A DNA stretch of 64,000 nucleotides, from contig NZ_CP042432.1 of the NCBI RefSeq assembly GCF_008033235.1, positions 2,542,001 to 2,606,000 of the forward strand, in the 5' to 3' direction. The DNA comes from Anseongella ginsenosidimutans (lineage in GTDB: Bacteria > Bacteroidota > Bacteroidia > Sphingobacteriales > Sphingobacteriaceae). Every line of letters starts with the position of its first letter. Positions within the stretch are counted from its first letter, which is position 1. The position numbers and the translations under genes were made by a program. The notes beneath the pieces were generated by a model. That model was not told the origin of the DNA, searched no databases, and saw only the letters and a list, made by a program, of their open reading frames with translations. Below are positions 1,184 through 16,045 of this stretch, one piece after another.

Positions 1184-2817
1184 ATGCATCAAAAAAAACT
1201 ATTCATTCTCGGCCTTCTTTTTCTTGTACCTGTCAGTCTGTTTGCCCAGCAAAAGCCCGGTCTTGATCAGCGCATCAATGATTGGTTCGCTCCCATAGCC
1301 GATGCCTGGGAAGCCATTGTCTTTACTACCGTTCCGCTGGGCTCGCTGGACGTTCCTATCGTACTCATCCTGCTCATCGGCGGAGGGTTTTCTTCACCTT
1401 GTACTTTTCCTTCGTAAATATCCGGAAATTTCCTATGGCATTGAAAGTGGTAAGAGGAAAATATGATTTCGTCGAAGGCAACGGAAACGAGAACATTCAC
1501 CCGGACAAGGACCTGATCACCCGGGACGGCGATATTCCCGATACCATAAAGGATGAAAGCAGACAGGGTGAAGTAAGCCATTTCCAGGCTCTTACGGCGG
1601 CTGTTTCGGGTACCGTGGGTTTAGGGAACATTGCCGGTGTGGCAGTAGCCATCGCGCTGGGAGGGCCGGGGGCTACGTTCTGGATGATCATTGCCGGCTT
1701 GCTGGGAATGTCCTCGAAATTCGTGGAATGTACACTTGGCGTAAAATACAGGGATGTAGATCCGGACGGTACTGTGCATGGAGGGCCTATGTATTACCTG
1801 GCCAAAGGATTAAAGGAGAAAGGCTGGACAAAGGCGGGAAAAACACTTGCAATACTGTTTTCCATTTTATGCGTCGGCGCTTCATTTGGCGGCGGCAACT
1901 CGTTTCAGGCTAACCAGGCCGTGGCGCAGATAACTTCTACATTTGATCTGACGGGAGGATTTATTAAATCATTGCTGGGAGTAGGCATGGCCGGATTGGT
2001 GGCCATTGTTATTATCGGGGGAATTAAGAGGATCGCGAACTGGACGGAAAAGATCGTGCCTTTTATGGCCGGGCTTTACATCCTGGCCTGCCTGATCATT
2101 GTATTTGCACATTTCTCCTACATAGACGATGCGATCGTGCAGATCTTCAGTCAGGCATTTACCCCGCTTGCAGGACTGGGAGGAATGGTAGGCGTGCTTA
2201 TTACCGGATTCAGAAGAGCGGCTTTTTCCAACGAAGCAGGAATGGGTTCGGCGCCCATCGCCCATTCGGCGGTTAAGACCAGGTATCCCGCCAGCGAAGG
2301 CGTTGTCTCCCTCCTGGAGCCCTTCGTAGACACAGTGGTGATCTGTACCATGACTGCCCTGGTGATCGTGCTGTATAATATGGAAGGCGCTTTTACCTAC
2401 GGGGTGCAGGATGAATTCGGGAATGTAATTCTTAATTCATCCGGCGAAGCCGTAGGAGGCGTAGGGTTAACGACCCTGGCATTTGATTCCGCATTACCGC
2501 ATTTCTCCTACGTGCTTACCATAGCCATCGTGCTGTTTGCCTTTTCCACGATGATCTCCTGGTCATACTACGGCATGCAGGCCTGGAAATTCCTTTTCGG
2601 CAAATCAAAAGCCGCCGATCTGACTTATAAAGTATTGTTCCTGATCTTCGTGGTGATAGGGGCTGCTACCACGCTGGACGCTGTAGTCAAGTTTTCCGAC
2701 GCCATGCTGCTAGCAATGGTGTTTCCCAACATGATCGGGCTGGTCATACTTGCGCCCAAAGTTAAAGAAGAGCTTAACCGGTACGTTAAAGCGGTTAAAC
2801 AGCGATTCTTGTCCTGA
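1184..2817 (+). CDS. Alanine/glycine:cation symporter (AGCS family), frameshifted near 1385
   Basis: Sodium- or proton-coupled alanine/glycine symporter in the inner membrane. The N-terminus (from 1184) has a hydrophobic leader ending FAQQ, then [17 protein letters not shown], and breaks at GGG (1385-1387). The family-typical continuation [19 protein letters not shown] lies in another frame that runs to 2817. Adding one G at 1385-1387 joins the halves into about 544 residues, the usual family length. Later signatures are present: the [15 protein letters not shown] sodium-site helix, the GGPGATFWM segment and the [16 protein letters not shown] stretch. The leader-like N-terminus is, as far as I recall, common in Bacteroidota members. 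It converges on hppA with no clear T-rich terminator. The frameshift probably reflects an assembly error because everything downstream is well conserved. Confidence 0.88.
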
Positions 2818-5069
2818 GCCACGTTCCCGGGGGCTGCCACGGCATTAGCCGCTGCCGGCCTCCGTGGAATTTCCCCGCAAAGGCCGGAGCCTGTGTTATG
2901 CTGCTGAACGGCTTCCGTTTTATTGCTTTCCGGAACAGCGGAATGATGAGCCGTCTCTACTGCAATATGAGGGGCGATCACCAGGGAAACAATGGACATC
3001 AGCTTGATCAGGATATTCATAGAGGGGCCGGAAGTATCCTTGAACGGATCGCCTACCGTATCCCCGGTAACGGACGCTTTGTGCGGCTCGGATCCCTTAT
3101 AATAGGTTTCTCCGTCAATTTCAACCCCTTTCTCGAAGGATTTTTTGGCATTATCCCAGGCGCCGCCCGCATTGGACTGGAACATGCCCATCAATACCCC
3201 TGAAACCGTCACGCCAGCCAGCAAGCCGCCGAGTACTTCGGGGCCGAAGGCAAAGCCGATAACCAAAGGTGTTATTAGTGCAATAGCGCCGGGAGCAAAC
3301 ATTTCCCGGATAGAAGCTTTGGTGGAAATGGCTACGCATTTTTCATATTCGGGAGTAGCCTTATGTTCCATGATGCCTGGAATATCGCGAAACTGCCGCC
3401 GTACTTCATTTACCATGTCCATGGCGGCACGTCCGACAGCTGAAATGCAAAGCGACGAAAAAATGAAGGGAATCATTCCCCCGACAAACAGTCCCGCCAG
3501 TACATCGGCTTTGTAGATATCAATCTGGTCGATACCCGCCACACCAACAAAAGCTGCGAAAAGAGCCAGGGACGTGAGGGCGGCGGAAGCAATGGCAAAA
3601 CCTTTTCCGGTGGCGGCGGTCGTGTTGCCGACTGCATCCAGGTTATCAGTACGTTCCCGCACTTCCTTGGGCAGCCCGCTCATTTCTGCAATCCCGCCCG
3701 CATTGTCTGCGATTGGCCCGAACGCATCAATAGCCAGCTGCATAGCCGTAGTTGCCATCATTCCGGCAGCGGCAATAGCTACGCCGTAAAGCCCCGCGAA
3801 GAAATAGGAACCGTAAATACCTCCCGCCAGCACCAGGATAGGCAGCAGGGTGGATTCCATTCCTACCGCCAGCCCGCCGATGATATTAGTGGCATGGCCG
3901 GTTGAAGACTGTTTAACGATGGAATTAACCGGCCGTTTATTCATGGCCGTGTAATATTCGGTAATGGTACTCATCAGCGCGCCTACGACCAAACCAAGCA
4001 CAATGGCTGAATACACGTCCATGCTGCTGAATTCGTATCCGCGGATGCTCATTTCGGACGGAAGCATCCAGTAAACCGCCAGGAAGGAAAATACGGCAGT
4101 CAGGATGATCGAAGACCAGTTCCCCATATTAAGTGCCGCCTGTACGTTATCGGTTTCCTTTTTAATGCGGACAAACCAGGTACCCACGATGGAAAATACG
4201 AGTCCCAGGCCCGCAATAACCATCGGCAGCAGGATAGGGGCGATCCCCCCGAAGTTATCTTCCGAAACGATCTCACGGCCCAGTACCATTGTTGCAAGAA
4301 TGGTGGCCACGTAAGAACCGAAGAGATCCGCACCCATTCCGGCAACATCGCCCACGTTATCCCCTACATTGTCGGCAATGGTGGCAGGGTTGCGCACATC
4401 GTCTTCCGGTATCCCGGCTTCCACTTTTCCTACCAGGTCGGCGCCTACGTCCGCCGCTTTCGTGTAAATGCCGCCTCCTACGCGGGCAAAAAGCGCAATG
4501 CTTTCAGCGCCCAGGGAAAAGCCCGCCAGCACTTCCAGCGCCTTTTCCATTTCCACACCATTTACGCTGGCCCCGTGCTGAACGACAAAAAGGTTGTAGA
4601 ACACGATAAAAAGGGAGCCCAGCCCTAATACAGCCAGGCCTGCAACGCCCATTCCCATTACCGAACCGCCGGTAAAAGATACCTTAAGGGCCCTGGCAAG
4701 ACTCGTGCGGGCGGCTTGTGTGGTGCGTACATTCGCTTTGGTAGCGATGCTCATTCCTATATATCCTGCGAAAGCAGATGTTACCGCTCCAATAATGAAG
4801 GAAACGGCGATGATCCAACTCGATGTTTCCACCAATGTTCCCGACCAGCCCAGCAAAAGGGCGGCAATCACGACATAATATGACAATACCTTCCATTCTG
4901 CTTGTAAAAAAGCCATAGCGCCCCTGGCGATGTATCCCGCCAGTTCCACCATTTTCGCTTCACCGGGATCCTGCTTTGTCACCCAGCTGGACCGCATCCA
5001 GGTAACAAAAAGCCCCAGCAAACCAAGCACAGGGATCAGGTAAATTAAGTTCTGTCGTAAAAATTCCAT
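2625..5069 (-). CDS. hppA: Membrane-bound ion-translocating pyrophosphatase
   Basis: Couples pyrophosphate hydrolysis to H+ and/or Na+ export across the inner membrane. Multi-helix protein with the substrate-binding signatures [11 protein letters not shown] and [18 protein letters not shown]. The [10 protein letters not shown] segment has Ala where K+-independent enzymes carry Lys, so a K+-dependent type is predicted; H+ versus Na+ selectivity is not decided. The conserved body ends at [11 protein letters not shown], after which the frame runs on about 115 residues, the last 64 being antisense to the symporter's 3' end, which looks unnatural. Adding one G to the run at 2873-2876 would give a stop at 2845-2847, a protein near 741 residues, and a 27-bp gap to the symporter. 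A short hairpin (CCACGG 2837-2842 with CCGTGG 2862-2867) lies in that gap. Confidence 0.92.
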
Positions 5070-6049: not shown

Positions 6050-7354
6050 TCAGAGTGTATTCGCCGCAACTATTGCTTCCGCCACGACAAAAGTGCTTCC
6101 TCCGATAAATATCATGTCCAGGACAGATGCCGCTTGCCGCGCCGCTTCAACCGCCTCCTTTACAGAAGTAAATGCCTCACCTCTTAAGCCGGCCGCAAAC
6201 GCTTTTTCCTGCAACACATTTTCATCCATTGCGCGGGGAACACCCGCCTTACAGAAGTAATAACAGGCCTTCTGTGGAAGTATAGTCAGGATTTTTTCCA
6301 CGTCCTTATCGTTCACCATTCCAAAAACTATGTGCAGCTTTTCATGAGGGGTCGCGGAGATTTGCTGCAACACTTCCCGGATACCGTCCTGGTTATGGCC
6401 GGTATCGCAGACCATGAGCGGCGCCGCGCTTAATATTTGCCAGCGGCCGGCGAAACCGGTCAAAGCCTTAACCCGTCGTACTGCGTCCCTTACAATTTTG
6501 TCACCTACAGTGAAACCCCGTTTTTTTAATTCCTCCACAGCCGAAAGCACCGTTCTGATGTTTTTTTTCTGATATCCCCCGGTCAGATCCAGTTGTAAGT
6601 CAAGGGTCTTTCCAAAGGTTGATGAACGAACAGCTATCTCCAAAAACCCTTCTTCCCGGTTTATGGAATTCACGTCCCAGTCCAGGGAGGCGAAATGAAC
6701 AGGCGCCTGCATTTGCGCGGCCTTTTCGCGGAAAACCGGTGCGGTTTCTTCCTGGTATTCGCCGATGACCACCGGAACGCCGAATTTTATAATGCCCGCT
6801 TTTTCTCCGGCAATGGCATCCAGCGTACTACCAAGGACATGTACATGGTCCAGCCCGATATTGGTAATCACGGAAAGTTCGGGTGTAATGATATTGGTGG
6901 AATCCAGCCTTCCGCCCATGCCCACTTCGACGACCGCGATATCTACCTCCTGCAAGGCGAAATACCAGAAAGCCATGGCTACCGTCACTTCAAAAAAAGA
7001 TGGGGAGATGCCTTCTATCCCAGAGCGGTTTGCCGCTACAAAACGAACAACATCTTCTTCCGGGATCATGCAGCCGTTAACCCGGATACGTTCCCTGAAG
7101 TCAACCAGATGAGGAGAAGTATATAAGCCTGTTTTATAGCCCGCAGTTTGCAGAATAGCAGCCAGCATATGGGAAACGGATCCCTTTCCGTTGGTTCCGC
7201 CGATATGTACGGAGCGAAAGCGATTTTGCGGATTTTCAAGCCGCTGACAGAGCGTATTGATATTACGAAGGTCAGGCCGGTAGGCAGGTAAGCCTATTTT
7301 GTGGAATACAGGAAGCCGGCTGTACAGGTAATCGATCGTTTCCCGGTAATCCAC
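6050..7354 (-). CDS. folC: Bifunctional dihydrofolate / folylpolyglutamate synthase
   Basis: Cytosolic Mur-ligase-type enzyme that adds glutamate to dihydropteroate (making dihydrofolate) and then to folates. 434 residues, the usual length. Near residue 50 is the ATP P-loop VHIGGTNGKGSVSHML, followed by TGLYTSPHLVDFRERI, the folate-binding loop of the family, and VVEVGMGGRLDSTN with its metal-binding region. The C-terminal domain carries DTGHNQDGI. It is the last gene of a leftward block; the TonB-like gene ends 23 bp upstream, so co-transcription is likely although the functions are unrelated. Confidence 0.95.
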   Translation of the reverse strand: MDYRETIDYLYSRLPVFHKIGLPAYRPDLRNINTLCQRLENPQNRFRSVHIGGTNGKGSVSHMLAAILQTAGYKTGLYTSPHLVDFRERIRVNGCMIPEEDVVRFVAANRSGIEGISPSFFEVTVAMAFWYFALQEVDIAVVEVGMGGRLDSTNIITPELSVITNIGLDHVHVLGSTLDAIAGEKAGIIKFGVPVVIGEYQEETAPVFREKAAQMQAPVHFASLDWDVNSINREEGFLEIAVRSSTFGKTLDLQLDLTGGYQKKNIRTVLSAVEELKKRGFTVGDKIVRDAVRRVKALTGFAGRWQILSAAPLMVCDTGHNQDGIREVLQQISATPHEKLHIVFGMVNDKDVEKILTILPQKACYYFCKAGVPRAMDENVLQEKAFAAGLRGEAFTSVKEAVEAARQAASVLDMIFIGGSTFVVAEAIVAANTL

Positions 7355-7377
7355 TGTTGCTCGGTTTTTCCAGTGTT

Positions 7378-8238
7378 TTACCGGAGGATAAACGTAAATA
7401 CAACCGTGCCGGCCTGGATTTCGGGGCCTTTGGCGATGGGGTTTAACTTGGCATTCATTACCGCTTGCTCACATTTGGCCCACAAGGCGGCGCTGGAGAT
7501 GGTAGTGCCCCGGGCGCCCGCTTTGGCAGTTTTTATATTTCCGCTGCGGTCTACCGTGATCTGGACCGCTATCTTTCCTGTACTTTGGCCGTCGTCCTGC
7601 AGGGTAGGGCGTGAAGTGAAGTACCTTCCCGCAAGGTTAAGGGCAATGCCCCCGCCGCCGGAGCCTGTTCCTTCGTAACTGTTAGAAAGGTTATTCCCTG
7701 TTTGCGCTCCCTGGTTTCCGGCCTGTGTGCCGGTTCCGTCGCCGCTTCCGGCGCCCTCGCTCTGGTTGCCTTTATATAAGGCATTCTGGTTAACTACGGG
7801 TTCCTTTTTCTCTTCCGGCTGGCTATGATCATTATTGGTTACCGGGCCTTCCACGGGTTTAGCCGTAACTTCCGGGTTATTCGAGCTTTTCACGGCCGGC
7901 GCTTCTTCAAAATCCTGGGTAGCTATGCGTCTTTCATCAGCTTCCGGTACCGGGTTAGAGGAGGCCGCTACTTCTTCCTGCGTTTCCACCGGCGGGCGGT
8001 TATTAGCTTCCGGAGAAGCCGAAACCGCTTCCATACTGGTATAATCCGTTCCCATTCCTACTTCATCAGGGCCGTAATTGATCTCAATTCCGCCGCTCAG
8101 TATTTCTTCCCTGGTTTCCTGCTGCGTCCGGATGTAAACAAAGTAGAGGACGAGTAAAATTACAATATATACGCCTGAAGCGTAAGCAAGCGCTTTTTTC
8201 CACTGGGGAGGCTGGTCTATATATTGATAATTTGCCAT
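7378..8238 (-). CDS. TonB-like energy transducer
   Basis: Periplasm-spanning protein that should pass proton-motive energy from ExbB/ExbD to outer-membrane receptors. 286 residues. A single N-terminal helix (about residues 14-33, ALAYASGVYIVILLVLYFVY) follows a short cytoplasmic stretch. A long variable linker is rich in Glu, Pro, Asn and Gly, with GNQSEGAGSGDGTGTQAGN. The C-terminal 90 residues (QITVDRSGNIKTAKAGARG and onwards) resemble the TonB/TolA C-terminal fold. exbD lies 4 bp upstream and exbB before it, the usual gene order. Small differences from TonB proper, such as a short Pro region, leave open a TolA-like role. Confidence 0.85.
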   Translation of the reverse strand: MANYQYIDQPPQWKKALAYASGVYIVILLVLYFVYIRTQQETREEILSGGIEINYGPDEVGMGTDYTSMEAVSASPEANNRPPVETQEEVAASSNPVPEADERRIATQDFEEAPAVKSSNNPEVTAKPVEGPVTNNDHSQPEEKKEPVVNQNALYKGNQSEGAGSGDGTGTQAGNQGAQTGNNLSNSYEGTGSGGGGIALNLAGRYFTSRPTLQDDGQSTGKIAVQITVDRSGNIKTAKAGARGTTISSAALWAKCEQAVMNAKLNPIAKGPEIQAGTVVFTFILR

Positions 8239-8242
8239 GATA

Positions 8243-8644
8243 TTATTGTTCTTTATCGGTGGCCAGCACCATTTTTACCTGGTTGCGGTTGCATGCGTCC
8301 ATAATATCCACCAGGTGTTGTACATCCACCGAACGATCTACGTATAAAACGGCGGAAAGTTCATTATTGTTTCCCCGGGGATAATTTTGCAGCAGGCTGT
8401 CAAGCATGCCTACTGATACCGGACGCTTGTCGATATACAGCTGCAGATCTTTGGTCAGCGTAATGTTAACGGTTTGTTTCGAATAGGTGTCACCTGATTC
8501 GGACCGCGGATTTTGTACCCTGATCACATTTGGATTGATCACCAGGGAAGCGATAAGGAAAAACAACATCAGGAAGAACATGATATCGTTCATCGATGCT
8601 GCGTTTACTTCCGCCTGTACTTTATGCCTCTTTCTGATGTTCAT
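8243..8644 (-). CDS. exbD: ExbD/TolR-family biopolymer transport protein
   Basis: Inner-membrane subunit of the TonB-energising proton channel. 133 residues with a cytoplasmic Lys/Arg-rich start, one transmembrane helix (about 18-38, DIMFFLMLFFLIASLVI) whose first Asp sits where the proton-conducting Asp of ExbD/TolR lies, and a periplasmic domain containing TLTKDLQLYIDKRPV and ending in DACNRNQVKMVLATD. It lies between a TonB-like gene (4 bp downstream) and exbB, but the exbB-exbD spacer is 223 bp and full of tandem repeats, unusual for such a pair. Confidence 0.92.
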   Translation of the reverse strand: MNIRKRHKVQAEVNAASMNDIMFFLMLFFLIASLVINPNVIRVQNPRSESGDTYSKQTVNITLTKDLQLYIDKRPVSVGMLDSLLQNYPRGNNNELSAVLYVDRSVDVQHLVDIMDACNRNQVKMVLATDKEQ

Positions 8645-8651
8645 TTTCTAA

Positions 8652-8766
8652 GTTGCTTCGCAAATAGTTCAAAGTTTCATGTTGCTTCGCAAATAGTTCA
8701 AAGTTTCATGTTGCTTCGCAACAGTTCAAAGTTCCAATTTGCTTCGCACAGTTCAAAGTTACCGCT
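8652..8766. repeat. Four tandem copies of a 28-29 bp unit between exbB and exbD
   Basis: Units begin at 8652, 8681, 8710 and about 8738. The first two are identical 29-mers starting GTTGCTTCGC and ending AAGTTTCAT; the third and fourth are degenerate (CAACAGTTC or CACAGTTC in place of CAAATAGTTC). There are no unique spacers between units, so this is a minisatellite and not a CRISPR array. It lies inside the presumed exbB-exbD transcript. Confidence 0.85.
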
Positions 8767-8807
8767 TCAGGGTGCAAATTCGAAGCCGGAAAAACACGCG
8801 TTAACAT

Positions 8808-8870
8808 AAAACCTTAAACCTTAAACCTTGAACCTTGAACCTTGAACTTTAAACCTGGAACTTTAAACTA
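8808..8870. repeat. Heptamer satellite (AACCTTA/AACCTTG) touching the exbB stop codon
   Basis: From 8808 to about 8840 the sequence is an almost unbroken run of 7-mers: three AACCTTA-type, then AACCTTG-type units. It passes into degenerate AACTTTA/AACCTGG forms up to 8867, directly beside the exbB stop codon (8868-8870). On the coding (minus) strand it reads as a telomere-like G/T-rich repeat (AAGGTTT/AAGGTTC). Likely slippage-prone. Confidence 0.85.
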
Positions 8871-9578
8871 TTTAGTAGGTTCTTCCAGTAAATCAATAAA
8901 ATCGATCGAATCCGTTTCCATTTGCAAAATTACCTTATCTACCATCATGGTTAAAATATGATGACCGATATAAGCCAGGATCCCGATGAACAGGCCGGCG
9001 GCACTGGTGATCATTTTCTGGTACAAACCGCTGGAAACAGTGTCAATGGAATATTCTCCGGTAGCGGAAATATCGTAAAAGATCGTAATTACCCCAATGA
9101 TAGTTCCAATAAAGCCCAGCATGGGAGCAATGCCCGCGATAATTCCCAGGATACTAATGTTCTTTTCCAGTTTCGACACCTCCAGTTTCCCCTGGTTTTC
9201 AATGGCGCCTTCAATATCCTTAATAGGCTTACCTATGCGAAGAAGCCCTTTTTGAAGCATGCGGCCAATCGGAGTTGCGCTATTCCTGCAAAGAGCAATG
9301 GCGCCGTCAAGATTGCCGGCAAGCACGTACTGCTTTATCTGCATGGTAAGGTTGGCTTCATAGCGGGCGGCCTTCCGGATGGTGAAATACCGCTCGAAAA
9401 AGATATAAATACCAAGGAAGAGCAGCAGCGCTATCGGAAGCATAACCCAGCCCCCTTTGATCAAAAGACTCAATATATTCACCTTTTGCTCAGCCGCAAT
9501 CACGGAATTCTGGGGGAGCGCTTGCTGTAAAGTATCTGCCGCCTGGTTCAGGGTATCCCCAATCTGTAACAACAACAT
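8868..9578 (-). CDS. exbB: ExbB/TolQ-family proton channel subunit
   Basis: Inner-membrane channel component (MotA/TolQ/ExbB family) that works with ExbD to energise TonB. 236 residues: an N-terminal segment with weak signal-like character, a first helix at about 40-60 (GGWVMLPIALLLFLGIYIFFE), a cytoplasmic domain with the LEKNISILGIIAGIAPMLGF-type junction, then two close helices containing GFIGTIIGVITIF and SGLYQKMITSAAGLFIGI, which hold the conserved small/Thr residues of the proton path. Encoded 32 bp after the HU-fold protein gene. Its stop codon abuts the heptamer satellite. Confidence 0.93.
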   Translation of the reverse strand: MLLLQIGDTLNQAADTLQQALPQNSVIAAEQKVNILSLLIKGGWVMLPIALLLFLGIYIFFERYFTIRKAARYEANLTMQIKQYVLAGNLDGAIALCRNSATPIGRMLQKGLLRIGKPIKDIEGAIENQGKLEVSKLEKNISILGIIAGIAPMLGFIGTIIGVITIFYDISATGEYSIDTVSSGLYQKMITSAAGLFIGILAYIGHHILTMMVDKVILQMETDSIDFIDLLEEPTK

Positions 9579-9610
9579 AAATTATTCTTGATTTTTTACT
9601 GTTTTTAACT

Positions 9611-10210
9611 TTAAACTCCAATAATATTCAGCCTCACAAGCAGCAGGGATACAAGCCCTAATATAATCAGACCAATCAGAATTGCCCAAACAAGCTTGAA
9701 TTTATTTTTTCTTACATTTTTAAACCCGATTTTCCGGGTGATGACCTCTACCATATTCCCGTGTTCCAGGGGCTTTAGTTCCACTGGGCTCAGGCCGAAG
9801 ATAGCACGGTCGTTGAGTAAGGACTCAAAGATGACCTTCCCTGACTGGCCGGCGGTTAATTTACCCACTTCCGGAAGCTCAAAAGAGCCGTTACGGCTTA
9901 GCTCCTGTTTTACGCGGATAACAAACTTATCAACTTCATAACCGGCCAGGTTCGGGTTTATCTGCCGGCTCTCCGCTATTTTTTCTGCCAGTTTCCTGTC
10001 TCGCGCATCGTATTTCTCAGAGAAAGCAAGCCCTGCCAAAAAGGGGAAAAAGTGATCACGCCCTTCTTTTTTCTGCCCGCTCTGTTCCGCCGGTTTCTTC
10101 TTCGGATGTTCATCCGCATGCTGAACCGAAGTGGAAAGGGTACCCAGGCCGGGTATGCAGACCTGTTTTTCGGTACTTAAAAGTATTGCTATCGATTTTG
10201 TAATATCCAT
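9611..10210 (-). CDS. HU/CCDC81-type domain protein with C-terminal membrane anchor
   Basis: 199 residues. The first part (ITKSIAILLSTEKQVCIPGLGTLS) and the middle (KFVIRVKQELSRNGSFELPEVGKLTAG) look like the two HU-fold modules of the bacterial CCDC81-like family, which in Bacteroidota often precede a membrane helix and a SPOR domain. Here the protein ends shortly after one helix (about 173-194, WAILIGLIILGLVSLLLV), so the periplasmic SPOR domain is missing. The HU-fold part should be cytoplasmic. Neighbours are an outer-membrane barrel gene (15 bp upstream) and exbB (32 bp downstream), so a role in cell-envelope organisation is inferred. Whether it binds DNA is unknown. Confidence 0.75.
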   Translation of the reverse strand: MDITKSIAILLSTEKQVCIPGLGTLSTSVQHADEHPKKKPAEQSGQKKEGRDHFFPFLAGLAFSEKYDARDRKLAEKIAESRQINPNLAGYEVDKFVIRVKQELSRNGSFELPEVGKLTAGQSGKVIFESLLNDRAIFGLSPVELKPLEHGNMVEVITRKIGFKNVRKNKFKLVWAILIGLIILGLVSLLLVRLNIIGV

Positions 10211-10225
10211 ACCCTTTCGCGTTCG

Positions 10226-11940
10226 CTAAAGTGAAAATGTAAGTCCGGCCATCATGTTAAAGCCCATTCCCTGGTAATTCAGGTAGCGCTCGTATTGTTT
10301 GTTCAATACATTGTTGGCATTGAGGAAAATACCGAAGTTTGTGTTGATCTTGTAGCTCGCACCAAAATTAAGATCCGCATAGGGGTCCAGCACCTCGTAG
10401 GTAGTGCCTTCGCCGGCGGCCCCAGGTATGCATTACGCTCGCCGACATAGAAGAGGTCAGCGGTCAGGAAAAGCTTGTCGCGGTAATTATAAGTGGGTGA
10501 AATATACAATTTCATGGAAGGAACATTCCAGGCGCGCTGGATGAAGTCATCTTCGTACTTGTAGCTCCAGACACCCATATTCATTCTGAACGCTTCCGAA
10601 TAACGCACATTCAGTTCGGCATTGATCGTTGTCCGCTTGCCGTTCTCACCTGCCTGGTACACGCTGAATTCGCGGCTGTTCAGCGTATCGTTAACAATGA
10701 AATTCTGGTAGTCTACATTTGCATACTCGAATTGTGCCTTAAAGCCAACGCTGGACGAGAAAGAGCCCCGGATTCCTCCGAATGCATTGTATTTTTCACG
10801 GGAGTTGCCAAGCCCTGAGAAGTTGCGCATGTATGGATTTTCTTCTGAGAAATCTTTTACCGTATTTTTTACCACGTCTCCGCTCAAGCCACCGAATAAA
10901 GCGAGGTAATCAGGGATAAGCTGGAAATCAATGCTCAGGTCGGGGAAAAGGAACATTTTCTTATCAATCCCTGCAAAGGCATTGTCGTCCGAGATTCCCA
11001 CCAGGTTAATCCCTCCTTTAAAGGTAAAGCTTCCGTTCTTGAAAAGGAGATAGGGTTTGAAGCGGTAAACCGGGTTTTTAACCGAGGCAACTTCACCGCC
11101 GCCGGCGGTTGCCATGTCCAGGTTGGTGATATCAATATTCCCGGAAAGGTTAATGGAAAAAGTACCCAGTTGCTTCCCGATCAGCCCCGTGAGGTAAAAG
11201 TTATTTTCTTTCGACTCGAATTCATCGGAAAGTGTGTAGCCTCCGAGCTTCAGGCCGTATACAAAATCAGATGAGGTGGTCCGGAGGTTGGCAATTTCAA
11301 CTTCCCCTTCCAGGAGATTGAAGTTTTGTTTAACTGTGCCGGTATCGACGGCAGTAGGTATGGGAAATACATCGGGATCGGTGATATCCAAGGGGCCGTT
11401 GAGAACAGAGATACGGTTTCCACGCTGCCGGTATGCCGCATTTACGTTCAGGCTTGCACGCTCTCCGATATTGAATTTTCCAAAGCCGCCCACCGCGGTG
11501 CGGCCGTACTGCTGATAATCAAAATCTCCTTTAGCGGAATTATGCTGAAAAAAGAGGCCGTACTGGTTGTTTTCGTCCTGTTTATTATTGAAATATATTT
11601 CTCCGAGAACGCCGCCCAGGTTTCCTGCCCCGGCTTTCCCATAAAGGTAAGGGATGAAACCATTGGTGACAGCACGAGGTTGTTTGGCCGGAACGGGGCC
11701 GGGGTTGGAATTGTCGCTTAATTTTTCGTCCGTCACAAGGTAGTTTAACCGGGGCCGGACCTGGTTGGTGTCGCTTAATTGAGGGTTTTTCCTGATCTTA
11801 ACCGCATCGGCCAGCACCGGGCGGTAAGCCCTTACCACATTGATCTGCTCTTCCAGGGTTCGCTGGGCGTATCCGGCCTGCGCGGCAGAAAGAAAAATAA
11901 TGATCCAAAAATATCGTTGAAATTTCATCTTAATTTTCAT
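10226..11940 (-). CDS. Outer-membrane beta-barrel (TonB-receptor-like), frameshifted near 10430
   Basis: Signal peptide (MKFQRYFWIIIFLSAAQAGYAQ) then a barrel-type protein with many alternating aromatic strands and no obvious plug domain. The first frame breaks after YVGERNAYLG at a GGGG run (10430-10433). With one added G it continues in another frame to 10226, through NFGIFLNANNVLNKQYERYL and on to a final strand ending in MAGLTFSL, the C-terminal pattern expected of TonB-dependent receptors. Corrected length is about 571 residues. Start: ATG at 11940 overlaps the TPR gene stop by 11 nt; ATG at 11928, one base past that stop, is equally plausible. Tight linkage to the TPR gene suggests a shared envelope function; substrate unknown. 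Confidence 0.75.
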
Positions 11941-14900
11941 TACTGGTTGAATCCTGTGCTGCTTCTTCCGCTTTGTCTGCGGCATTTATTTCTTCCAGCT
12001 TCTGTTTTGCGGAAGGAACGATGTCGTCATCGCCCTGGTAATTATCGATCACGCTCTGAAGCGTACTCCTTGCCTGGAAGATATTCCCCTTTTTCGCGTA
12101 ATTATCTGCGAGGAGAACAAAGCTCCTGGCTACCCAGTAGTCCTGGTTAGGCATGTTGTTGATGACCTCGAAGCAGCTCTTTTCAGATGCATCGTAATCG
12201 CCGGAAGTGTTTTGTATTTGTGCCTCCAGGTATTTTGCTTCAGCCGCTACCGCTGTCTTGGCTGTTTTACTGGCGGCCCGGAACTCTTCGAGCGCTCTGG
12301 CTGCCTCACCTCGGGCCAGGTAAGATTTCCCGGCATACAAATGGGCCATATTCAGCTCGTTAGTTGACGCTTTTTCATTCTTAAGTACTTCCTGGCTATA
12401 ATAGAATGTAGAATCCGCATTTCCCTGGGCATTATAAGCGCGCATCAGGTTAACAATGGCAAAACCCTGGTTTTCCTGGTACTCGGGATCGCCCTCCAGC
12501 GTCTTCAGCAAGGGCAGGACATTTACGAAATCCTCCCGGGTAATATAAATCTCTGAAGCCGCTACCAGTGCGCGCTGAGAGTACTGGTTCTTGGGCTGTT
12601 CGGCCAGGTACAGGAAATCGCTAAGCGCTTCATCATGCTTGTTGCTTCTAACCAGGCACTCAGCGCGGTAAAAATGTACATCGTTGGTGAATTGACCTTG
12701 CGGGAAATTGCTCAGGTAATTACTGAACGTAGCAACGCCTTTTTCGCAATCACCTTTAAGATACATAGAATAAGCTGCCTGGTAACTGATGGAATCCTGT
12801 TCGCTGGTAGAGATATTTACGTTCGGGACTGTTTTGCTGTAGGATAGGAAAGCTTCCGCATTACCCTGTTCCACATAAATGTTCCGGATGGCCTGGATGG
12901 CTTCTCTTCTCTGCGCGGTAGAACCATAGTTGCTGACTACTTTTTTATAGGTTGCCAGGGCTGCTTCGTCATTGCCTGCATTATACTGGATCAGCCCCAG
13001 TTTCATCATCGCCTCGGGGGCGCGGCTGCTGTTTGGATACCTGCTGATCAGCGAATTGAATTCGGCGGTAGCCTGGGCTACATTCCCTTCCAGCAAGTAG
13101 GTGTTCCCGATTTCAAACTGCGCATCGTCCGCATAACCCGACTCCGGGTATTTGCTGATAATACCTTGCAGCGTACCGGCTTTATTGGCATTTTGTCCGC
13201 GCAGCCCTTCGATCATTCCTTTCTGATACAAGGCATAATCTACGCCGGAACCGCCGCTGGCGATCACCGAGTTATAAACGTCAAGCGCCTGGCCGTAATT
13301 TTTCAGAACGAACCGGGAATCGGCAAGGCGAAGCCGCGCATCGTTAATGACTCCCTGTTCGCTGCCGCCGCTGCTGATATACTGCTGGAAATGCTGCGCT
13401 GCCTGGCGGAAGTCGTCATTCTGGAAATAAGCGTAGCCAGCGGTGTAATAAGCAAAAGGCATCACATTCGTAGACGCTGCACGTTCATTGGCAAAGAAAG
13501 CGCGGTAATTAGCAACCGCTTCGCTGAAATAGCGCAGCTCATAATAGGCTTCTCCTGCCCAGTAATTCGCAAGGGCGGTAATATTCCTGTCTTCGGAATA
13601 ATAAACGGCCTGCTTAAACAGCTCAATGGCCTGTTCGTATTTTTTTTCGTTGAATAATTCGGCGCCGCGGTAATAGCTCACCTTCTGGTAAAGTTCATTA
13701 CTCTGCCGGGTCTTGTTGCGTACGCTTTCCAGCACTTTCAGCGCTTCGGCGTAATTCCGGCTGCTTAACAGGACTTCTCCCCGTACGGTACGCGCCTCAT
13801 CGATGTAAACGGAATTCGGGAAGCGTTCAATGTATTGCTGGGTAGCCGTTAAGGCAAAGGAGTTAAAGCCCAGTTCGTAAGAAAGCTTGGCATATTGCAG
13901 CAGGGCATGCTGCTGAATCTCTTCATCGTGCGCCAGCTTGGACGCCCGTTCAAAGGCAGCCCGCGCATTTTGCTTGTTATCCGTTTTCAGGAAACAGTCC
14001 CCCAGCGTGTACATCGCATATTGCGTCCAGATATCATCGCCGTTCACCAGCGGTTCCAGGAGGATGATCGCATTCTTGTAATCGCCGGTTTTGTAATAAC
14101 TGTACCCGATCTGGTAGCTGTCCTGAGATGATTGATCTGCTGCATGGGTGCTGTTGAGGAAAAAGCCGAAGTATTCCACCGCCTTCTCGTATTCGCCTTT
14201 ATTAAAATAGGCTGATCCCAGTAATTTGGCCAGCTGCGCTTCGTATTCCGAACCCCGGCCGTTCTCAAAGGCGGGTTCAGCCAGGGCAATGGCGGCATCT
14301 ACTTTATCCAGCACCAGCAGAATCTGCGATTTATAATATATGTATGCATCCTTGTACTGAGGAACGTCGCGCAGTTTCTCAAATTCCCTGAGCGATACAT
14401 CATAATCCTTTTTCAGGAAAGAAACATGCGCATAGTAATAGGTGGCGTCATTGGTGTAAGGATTCCGGGGCTGCTGCGCTTTCTTGAAAAACCCAAGGGC
14501 GCGGATATCTTCCCCGGTTTCCAGGTGGCTTATGCCCATTTTGAAATTATATTCGGCCCGGTCGTTTCCGGCGAGGTCGTTTTCCTTCACTTTGCTGAAC
14601 CACTCAATAGCCTGCGGGTAATCTTTTCTCGCATAGTACAGCTTGCCCACATGGAACATCGCCGACTTCGTTTTCTCGCTTTCCGGGTAATCGGTAATAA
14701 AGCTCAGCAGGGCCTCCTGTGACTGCCGGTTCCCCAGTTCAAGGCCGCAAAGGATCTCATAATAGCGGGCATCGGCCTTCATCATCGTGATATCGCCGTT
14801 TTCAGCAGGAGTACTTCCGGCAACCTGCTTGTCCGTGTACACCTGCCGGAACATTTCCGCGGCGGACGCAAACTGATTATGGTCAAAAAGCTCAAGGCCC

Positions 14901-15013
14901 TTCCGGAAGGTCGCATTCGTTTCGTAATAAGCCGGCTGCTGTGCAAACAGGGTATAGGACGAAGCGAAAAATAAAAATATAAGGGGGAATAACTTTTTTC
15001 TGAACTGCATCAT
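11930..15013 (-). CDS. Large secreted/periplasmic TPR-repeat protein
   Basis: 1027 residues beginning with a signal peptide (MMQFRKKLFPLIFLFFASSYTLFAQ). Nearly the whole mature part is a chain of tetratricopeptide repeats; clear 34-residue units show the pattern YYxGEAYYxLxxYxxAVxxY, for example YWAGEAYYELRYFSEAVANYR, FAYYTAGYAYFQNDDFRQAA, FEIGNTYLLEGNVAQATAEF and MKLGLIQYNAGNDEAALATY. The end is acidic and Ala/Glu rich. Such solenoids scaffold protein complexes. It overlaps the barrel gene that follows, so the two are probably translated together and may work together at the outer membrane. A second Met one codon downstream (15010) is an equal start candidate. Confidence 0.85.
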   Translation of the reverse strand: MMQFRKKLFPLIFLFFASSYTLFAQQPAYYETNATFRKGLELFDHNQFASAAEMFRQVYTDKQVAGSTPAENGDITMMKADARYYEILCGLELGNRQSQEALLSFITDYPESEKTKSAMFHVGKLYYARKDYPQAIEWFSKVKENDLAGNDRAEYNFKMGISHLETGEDIRALGFFKKAQQPRNPYTNDATYYYAHVSFLKKDYDVSLREFEKLRDVPQYKDAYIYYKSQILLVLDKVDAAIALAEPAFENGRGSEYEAQLAKLLGSAYFNKGEYEKAVEYFGFFLNSTHAADQSSQDSYQIGYSYYKTGDYKNAIILLEPLVNGDDIWTQYAMYTLGDCFLKTDNKQNARAAFERASKLAHDEEIQQHALLQYAKLSYELGFNSFALTATQQYIERFPNSVYIDEARTVRGEVLLSSRNYAEALKVLESVRNKTRQSNELYQKVSYYRGAELFNEKKYEQAIELFKQAVYYSEDRNITALANYWAGEAYYELRYFSEAVANYRAFFANERAASTNVMPFAYYTAGYAYFQNDDFRQAAQHFQQYISSGGSEQGVINDARLRLADSRFVLKNYGQALDVYNSVIASGGSGVDYALYQKGMIEGLRGQNANKAGTLQGIISKYPESGYADDAQFEIGNTYLLEGNVAQATAEFNSLISRYPNSSRAPEAMMKLGLIQYNAGNDEAALATYKKVVSNYGSTAQRREAIQAIRNIYVEQGNAEAFLSYSKTVPNVNISTSEQDSISYQAAYSMYLKGDCEKGVATFSNYLSNFPQGQFTNDVHFYRAECLVRSNKHDEALSDFLYLAEQPKNQYSQRALVAASEIYITREDFVNVLPLLKTLEGDPEYQENQGFAIVNLMRAYNAQGNADSTFYYSQEVLKNEKASTNELNMAHLYAGKSYLARGEAARALEEFRAASKTAKTAVAAEAKYLEAQIQNTSGDYDASEKSCFEVINNMPNQDYWVARSFVLLADNYAKKGNIFQARSTLQSVIDNYQGDDDIVPSAKQKLEEINAADKAEEAAQDSTSNEN

Positions 15014-15119: not shown

Positions 15120-16045
15120 TTAGTGTTTCTGGGCCAGAAGGTACATGACCGCCATACGGATAGCGACACCGTTTTCTACTTGTTCCAGGATAATGGAATG
15201 TTCGCTGTCCGCTACATCGCTGGTGATTTCTACACCGCGGTTAATTGGCCCCGGATGCATGATGGTAATGGTCTTGTCCAGGGAATCGAGCAAGGCCCGG
15301 TTCAGCCCGTACATCATCGTGTATTCCCGCAGCGAAGGAAAATATTTAATATCCTGGCGTTCCAGTTGAATGCGCAGCATATTGGCAATGTCACACCATT
15401 CCAATGCTTTTCGAAGGTTATGCTCCACCAAAACTCCAAGGTCTTCCATGTAGCGAGGTATCAGGGTAGTAGGGCCGCAGACCATTACTTCGGCGCCCAG
15501 TTTTTGCAGGCACAAAATATTGGACAGGGCCACGCGGGAATGCAGGATATCACCCACGATCACTACTTTTTTCCCGCTGACATCTCCAAGTCTTTCACGA
15601 ATGGAAAACGCATCAAGCAGCGCCTGTGTAGGATGCTCGTTAGCGCCGTCCCCTGCATTAATAATATTAGCATGGATGTGCCTCGAAAGGAACACCCCGG
15701 CCCCGGGTAAGGATGACGCATGACGATCATATCCACCTTCATCGCCAGGATGTTTTTAACCGTATCCACCAGGGTTTCTCCCTTACTGACCGAGGAGGAG
15801 GACGCTGAAAAATTGATTACATCTGCTGAAAGTCGTTTTTGAGCCAGCTCAAACGAAAGCCGGGTACGTGTGGAATTTTCAAAAAACACATTCGCTACGG
15901 TCACGTCACGCAGGGAAGGCACCTTTTTGATCGGCCGGTTGATGACTTCCTTGAAATTATCGGCCGTTTCAAAGATCAGCTGAATATCCTTCTCGTTCAA
16001 ATCCTTTATCCCCAACAAATTCCTGGTGCTGAGCTGGTTATTCAT
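15120..16045 (-). CDS. pyrB: Aspartate carbamoyltransferase catalytic chain, frameshifted near 15701
   Basis: First committed step of pyrimidine synthesis: carbamoyl phosphate plus aspartate to carbamoyl-aspartate. N-terminal half (16045 to about 15700): [19 protein letters not shown] is the carbamoyl-phosphate site, followed by [15 protein letters not shown], the mobile loop with the catalytic Ser and Lys. The conserved [14 protein letters not shown] region is broken: one G is missing in the run at 15701-15704. The second frame resumes at [30 protein letters not shown] and runs to LLAQKH at 15120. Corrected length is about 308 residues, normal for the family. pyrR lies 8 bp upstream, forming a small pyrimidine operon. 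As all active-site elements survive, the shift is probably an assembly error. Confidence 0.92.

Follow-up and report, generated by a model that had tools for sequence, protein, structure and literature searches.

A conserved motor operon of Bacteroidota that may couple the outer membrane to the cell wall

Introduction

Bacteroidota have to pull in and stabilize their outer membrane without Tol-Pal, and how they do so is described as an open question (PMC12204202). A locus of Anseongella ginsenosidimutans bears on it. In the analysed stretch of 64,000 nt (contig NZ_CP042432.1, positions 2,542,001 to 2,606,000; here called the window), six open reading frames (ORFs) spanning 15013..7378 lie on the minus strand and encode a tetratricopeptide repeat (TPR) protein, an outer-membrane barrel, a membrane protein with HU-type domains (the third gene) and a set of ExbB-, ExbD- and TonB-like proteins. 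A preliminary description, made from the sequence of the window, had proposed that these genes form a dedicated, powered envelope machine with a part facing the chromosome or the cytosol. Do they belong together, and if so, what kind of machine would they build? We find that the module is real, old and conserved in Bacteroidota. That it is an ancient force-transduction module of this phylum which, like Tol-Pal, couples outer membrane and wall while cells grow and divide is the reading that we favor, with a probability of roughly 0.45. No published description of the module was found in the open-access literature searched.

Results

Conservation of the gene order

The gene order was compared in the best 80 of 511 ExbB-alignment matches in named genomes, a set of close relatives within the Sphingobacteriaceae. 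In 75 of these 80 loci all six genes follow one another on one strand as TPR-barrel-HU-ExbB-ExbD-TonB; the remaining five miss genes at contig ends, and a deviating order was found in none of the 80. This conservation, a check that the preliminary description had set beforehand, argues that the module did not come about by chance and supports the proposal of a dedicated powered envelope machine.

In a sample of 148 genomes from the whole phylum, the TPR gene was matched in 107 (E ≤ 1e-20; some matches are partial). The best ExbB match lies at most 12 kb from the TPR gene in 42 of these 107 genomes and in 14 of 29 families; two large families (f20, 0/14, and f36, 0/18) have no such linkage. We examined 60 of the 107 neighbourhoods; of the 40 nearest relatives 37 were covered as well, with 40 stretches. 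ExbB shares the stretch with the TPR gene in 21 of the 60, and 19 of these 21 also contain a SPOR match. Where the motor has moved away, the TPR-barrel gene pair remains.

An ordinary co-transcription of unrelated envelope and housekeeping genes, without any single machine, would be in line with the flanking of the module by folC and pyrR-pyrB in many relatives (folC is present in 72/80 loci, all seven genes in 68/80) and with the separation of TPR gene and motor in 65/107 genomes. However, what stays linked in families from either deep branch of the RpoB tree is the six gene kinds, and not folC or the pyr genes, and we consider this explanation highly improbable.

The motor and its transducer

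Pfam places the MotA/ExbB and ExbD proteins above the curated cut-offs. The genome has only two MotA/ExbB-type genes; the second, beside two ExbD genes and a proline-rich TonB, is the motor of a canonical Ton operon. A tree of 29 sequences, drawn from its midpoint, groups the motors of the module with weak support (0.74; tree supports are FastTree local supports throughout) and with one unlinked ExbB among them. The best NCBIfam model for the motor of the window is tolQ, with 66.8 bits at a cut-off of 221.

The last gene had been called TonB in the preliminary description. Its structure model has a helix at residues 13–41, from which a long disordered linker leads to a small domain at the C-terminus; the nine best PDB matches of this domain are all TonB-type C-terminal domains (probability 0.77–0.99), at weak E-values of 0.023–0.18 and a mean predicted local distance difference test score (pLDDT) of 60. 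Since Pfam yields no TonB_C match and nothing else above cut-off, the name holds for the predicted fold of the tip and not at the level of the protein family. Going by this model, the set of ExbB, ExbD and TonB-type transducer that makes up a Ton system would be present.

A barrel without a plug

In the barrel of the window Pfam finds nothing above cut-off. A model was made of the intact copy from the same genus (L083, 570 aa) with 40 sequences (pLDDT 73, predicted template modelling score 0.73). It is predicted to contain 22 long strands by our own count, with residues 19–95 disordered; no plug is seen in the model, and no plug match was found with Pfam. All 50 PDB matches listed for this model are TonB-dependent transporters, BtuB being the first (E = 1.1e-16), and the barrel profile matches FepA (E = 4e-5). 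An ordinary TonB-dependent transporter was rejected because the plug is missing. The disordered N-terminus keeps a box, for example EEIVVT, ahead of YKPVLADAVKI, which in deeper lineages reads like DFVITG and which we take to resemble TonB boxes. A TonB-box-like pattern occurs in 69 of 158 barrels as compared with a mean of 1.0 in composition shuffles, and a looser pattern in 111 of 158 as compared with 15, where the shuffles ignore shared ancestry and the box had been noticed by eye before it was counted.

The transporter fold, the TonB-box-like motif and the presence of an own motor and transducer would also suit a dedicated TonB-driven channel: the plugless barrel would import or export a specific cargo, with the TPR protein as its gate and the motor as its power source, and SPOR would be no more than a wall anchor. 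However, a plug to carry a substrate or set it free is missing, the recurring neighbours include no substrate-specific genes, and SPOR as well as a CpoB-like TPR protein are foreign to Ton transport. We regard it as unlikely.

The TPR protein

Pfam finds TPR repeats, and the best natural PDB chain for the TPR profile is CpoB (E = 2.4e-18). The NCBIfam model tol_pal_ybgF reaches 247 bits at a cut-off of 90, a score that is a sum over nine stretches of a repeat protein. The protein also exceeds the cut-off of the BamD model (102.7 versus 81.4 bits) and scores below cut-off for PorW/SprE. These two results and the persistence of the TPR-barrel pair after departure of the motor could point to an aid in outer-membrane or peptidoglycan assembly (of barrels, lipoproteins or type IX secretion) for which the motor is the energy source. 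We hold this to be rather improbable, as scores of the TPR protein are scattered across many TPR families and no recurring assembly genes were seen beside the module, where outside neighbours were not systematically named. At one locus (L057) an ORF of 828 aa beside the TPR gene (7040–9526) gives a match to the TPR profile and a weak one to that of the barrel; it is a partial tandem TPR copy.

The third gene

In the third-gene protein of the window, Pfam HU-CCDC81 domain 2 reaches 46.5 bits (cut-off 35) and domain 1 stays at 14.3 bits, below the cut-off of 26; in a Solitalea relative (L044) both are above cut-off. Domain 2 was matched in 78/78 complete Sphingobacteriaceae third-gene proteins, that of the window included. 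Pfam detects SPOR in 66 of the 78 (E ≤ 0.1); a profile derived from the same proteins raises this to 74, a count that is for this reason partly circular. The four proteins in which it was not found are those of the window, of the same-genus locus L083 and of two Solitalea loci (L087 and L091). A TPR+ExbB tree with 75 sequences, without L083 because its TPR gene is cut, joins the window and both Solitalea loci in one clade (support 0.994). Because the proteins without SPOR group in Anseongella and Solitalea, HU without SPOR is a derived state, owing to a clade-level loss, and the missing domain was rejected as a sign of a new kind of machine. ExbB begins only 32 nt past the HU stop, which leaves no space for a SPOR remnant. 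No SPOR match was found in the genome of the window at E ≤ 0.01; in a search of 14 genomes 13 gave at least one match, and the congener G001 has a weak match only.

The preliminary description was thus right about the absence of SPOR, and the reservation it had attached, a loss in this lineage only, comes close to what we observe: loss in Anseongella and Solitalea, with two HU proteins of another family (L179, 209 aa, and L180, 201 aa) that also stop shortly past the membrane helix. Its emphasis on a chromosome-facing part has lost weight. The phylum-wide comparison covers 27 third-gene proteins, a biased set in that they were chosen for a match to the HU or the SPOR profile. Of these, 22 have SPOR by Pfam and nine have HU-CCDC81 domain 2, and HU was not found in 16. 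The third gene of motor-linked loci in the phylum is mostly a membrane-anchored SPOR protein; the wall-facing SPOR is the phylum-wide constant and the cytosolic HU part is optional. A relative of the third gene at locus L079 (8771–9535), with a membrane helix, a weak SPOR match and no HU, is the mirror image of the protein of the window.

The retention of HU in all 78 family proteins, also where SPOR was lost, and a positive stretch before the helix that would place HU in the cytosol are compatible with a chromosome-facing machine, in which HU would tether the nucleoid to the motor and connect segregation to the constriction of the envelope. However, HU was not found in 16 of the 27 phylum proteins and its DNA binding is putative, and we consider this rather doubtful, about as improbable as the assembly aid. 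No paper on HU-CCDC81 was found in the open-access literature searched; HU families have reportedly been surveyed by Burroughs and Aravind in 2017.

TolB and the module

Full-length TolB (at least 332 bits) is present in 30 of the 148 genomes, all of family f30, probably the Chlorobiaceae. None of these 30 contains the TPR gene, and 107 genomes carry the TPR gene without such a TolB. The next-best TolB score after the 30 is 165.6 bits, and TPR-bearing genomes have at most partial matches (cut-off 343); in the genome of the window no TolB match was found at E ≤ 1e-20. In the RpoB tree f30 forms, together with f28 and f41, the sister group of all other families (G142 was left out of this tree due to a very long branch, most likely a wrong open frame). 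At an f30 locus (L255) the genes follow the tol-pal order: the motor pair comes first, then a membrane-anchored protein, TolB, a lipoprotein and finally a TPR protein, the names of unlabelled ORFs being taken from order and sequence. Pal is not part of the conserved gene order of the module, and the 11 OmpA-domain matches of the genome (10 above cut-off) lie elsewhere. A Tol-Pal operon was therefore rejected: TolB, Pal and a motor of the TolQ branch are all missing.

Layout of the locus

The features are collected in Table 1. All six genes lie on one strand as first described. The short spacers hold for barrel-HU (15 nt, with the corrected barrel end) and HU-ExbB; between ExbB and ExbD lie 223 nt of interspersed repeat, composed of 29-nt and 7-nt units, of which parts match 120 places in the genome. 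In the same-genus copy only 5 nt separate the two ORFs. With the ATG at 11940 as the barrel start, TPR and barrel genes overlap by 11 nt; with an alternative in-frame ATG at 11928 they do not. The barrel end initially given, 10303, is a frameshift product. Barrels of relatives align in one frame to about 10396 and in the next frame from about 10423 to 10229, so that the true end is 10226. A second frameshift lies nearby: pyrB (15120–16045) is broken into two frames near 15695–15704, which makes an assembly error as likely as real decay. The final stretch of a membrane pyrophosphatase ORF (2625–5069) is apparently out of frame as well. The downstream FolC-type Mur ligase is probably a passenger.

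Table 1. Features of the module and its downstream neighbour in the window
Feature	Position	Strand	Remarks
TPR protein	11930..15013	-	1027 aa with signal peptide; periplasmic scaffold by prediction; CpoB is its closest natural relative of solved structure
Outer-membrane barrel gene	10226..11940	-	TonB-dependent-transporter type, plugless; TonB-box-like N-terminus; frameshift near 10396-10423
Third-gene protein	9611..10210	-	199 aa; two domains of HU-CCDC81 type, probably cytosolic, then a single membrane helix and a short tail
ExbB/TolQ-type motor subunit, separate Bacteroidota clade	8868..9578	-	
Repeat-bearing spacer between motor genes	8645..8867	.	not in same-genus copy
ExbD/TolR-type motor subunit	8243..8644	-	133 aa
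TonB/TolA-like transducer	7378..8238	-	286 aa; predicted membrane helix, long glycine-rich disordered linker and TonB-type C-terminal domain
FolC-type Mur ligase	6050..7354	-	kept in 72/80 loci

Discussion

The anatomy of the module is well supported, and from it we infer a role in division and at the outer membrane. Most likely the module links the inner membrane, the wall and the outer membrane by means of its motor, like Tol-Pal in plan but without belonging to Tol-Pal. The proton-driven ExbB-ExbD pair would work the transducer, whose tip could take up the N-terminal box of the barrel through strand addition. The TPR protein would join the barrel to the wall, and it may also shut the pore. 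Denuded septal glycan is bound by SPOR domains (PMC6895207), and SPOR would position the machine at this peptidoglycan. The ancestral anchor was a SPOR wall-binder, often with a cytosolic HU part; in Anseongella and Solitalea, where SPOR was lost and the HU-membrane part is left, placement would have to rely on other partners or on the cytosolic side.

A more far-reaching version can be put forward tentatively, with lower confidence than force transduction as such. Here the module would be the own Tol-Pal replacement of Bacteroidota: the motor pulls on the plugless TonB-boxed barrel and the CpoB-like scaffold, SPOR steers the complex to the septum, and an optional HU arm, in Anseongella and Solitalea the sole anchor, reports on or holds the nucleoid.

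Several points weigh against force transduction in the manner of Tol-Pal. The TPR gene is not beside the motor in the majority of genomes that bear it (65 of 107), and 11 of the 148 genomes have neither TolB nor the TPR gene. As the TolB genomes are one family in the sister clade, the mutual exclusion of TolB and module is a single contrast and not a repeated replacement. The module motor falls outside the TolQ branch and groups separately from ExbB and TolQ of E. coli as well as from the TolQ of two tol-pal genomes; the E-values of the transducer tip and the way in which the box was counted belong here as well. For the Tol-Pal role PorE has been proposed instead (PMC12204202). Furthermore, after deletion of genes named tolA and tolB in Cytophaga hutchinsonii, filter-paper digestion and growth are described as wild-type-like in PMC5891637; tolA of this species could not be mapped to the module.

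If force transduction applies, a conserved motor operon with a septum-seeking domain is a concrete candidate for constriction of the outer membrane in Bacteroidota, and a plugless TonB-boxed barrel, if true, is an unusual client of a TonB-type motor.

Among known systems, the HU-CCDC81 and SPOR membrane proteins of Bacteroidota (Pfam PF18174, PF18175 and PF05036) have the architecture of the third gene, two HU-type domains followed by one membrane helix, and differ by the SPOR domain that was lost in Anseongella and Solitalea; the point added here to this family is its fixed position in a motor operon. PorE, a proposed CpoB-TolB-Pal fusion (PMC12204202), was put forward for the same missing role in Bacteroidetes, but it is a single lipoprotein of other make-up without a motor of its own. 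With the Ton system (ExbB-ExbD-TonB) the module shares the predicted TonB type of the transducer tip as well as the transporter fold and TonB-box-like N-terminus of the barrel. In contrast to this system, the barrel is plugless, the transducer linker is glycine-rich instead of proline-rich, TPR and SPOR/HU partners are added, and a separate Ton operon exists. Tol-Pal (TolQ-TolR-TolA-TolB-Pal-CpoB) likewise combines in one operon a motor pair, a transducer that spans the periplasm, a TPR protein resembling CpoB, a part that binds peptidoglycan and a partner in the outer membrane. However, the module has a barrel in the place of TolB and SPOR in the place of Pal, and is driven by a motor from outside the TolQ branch.

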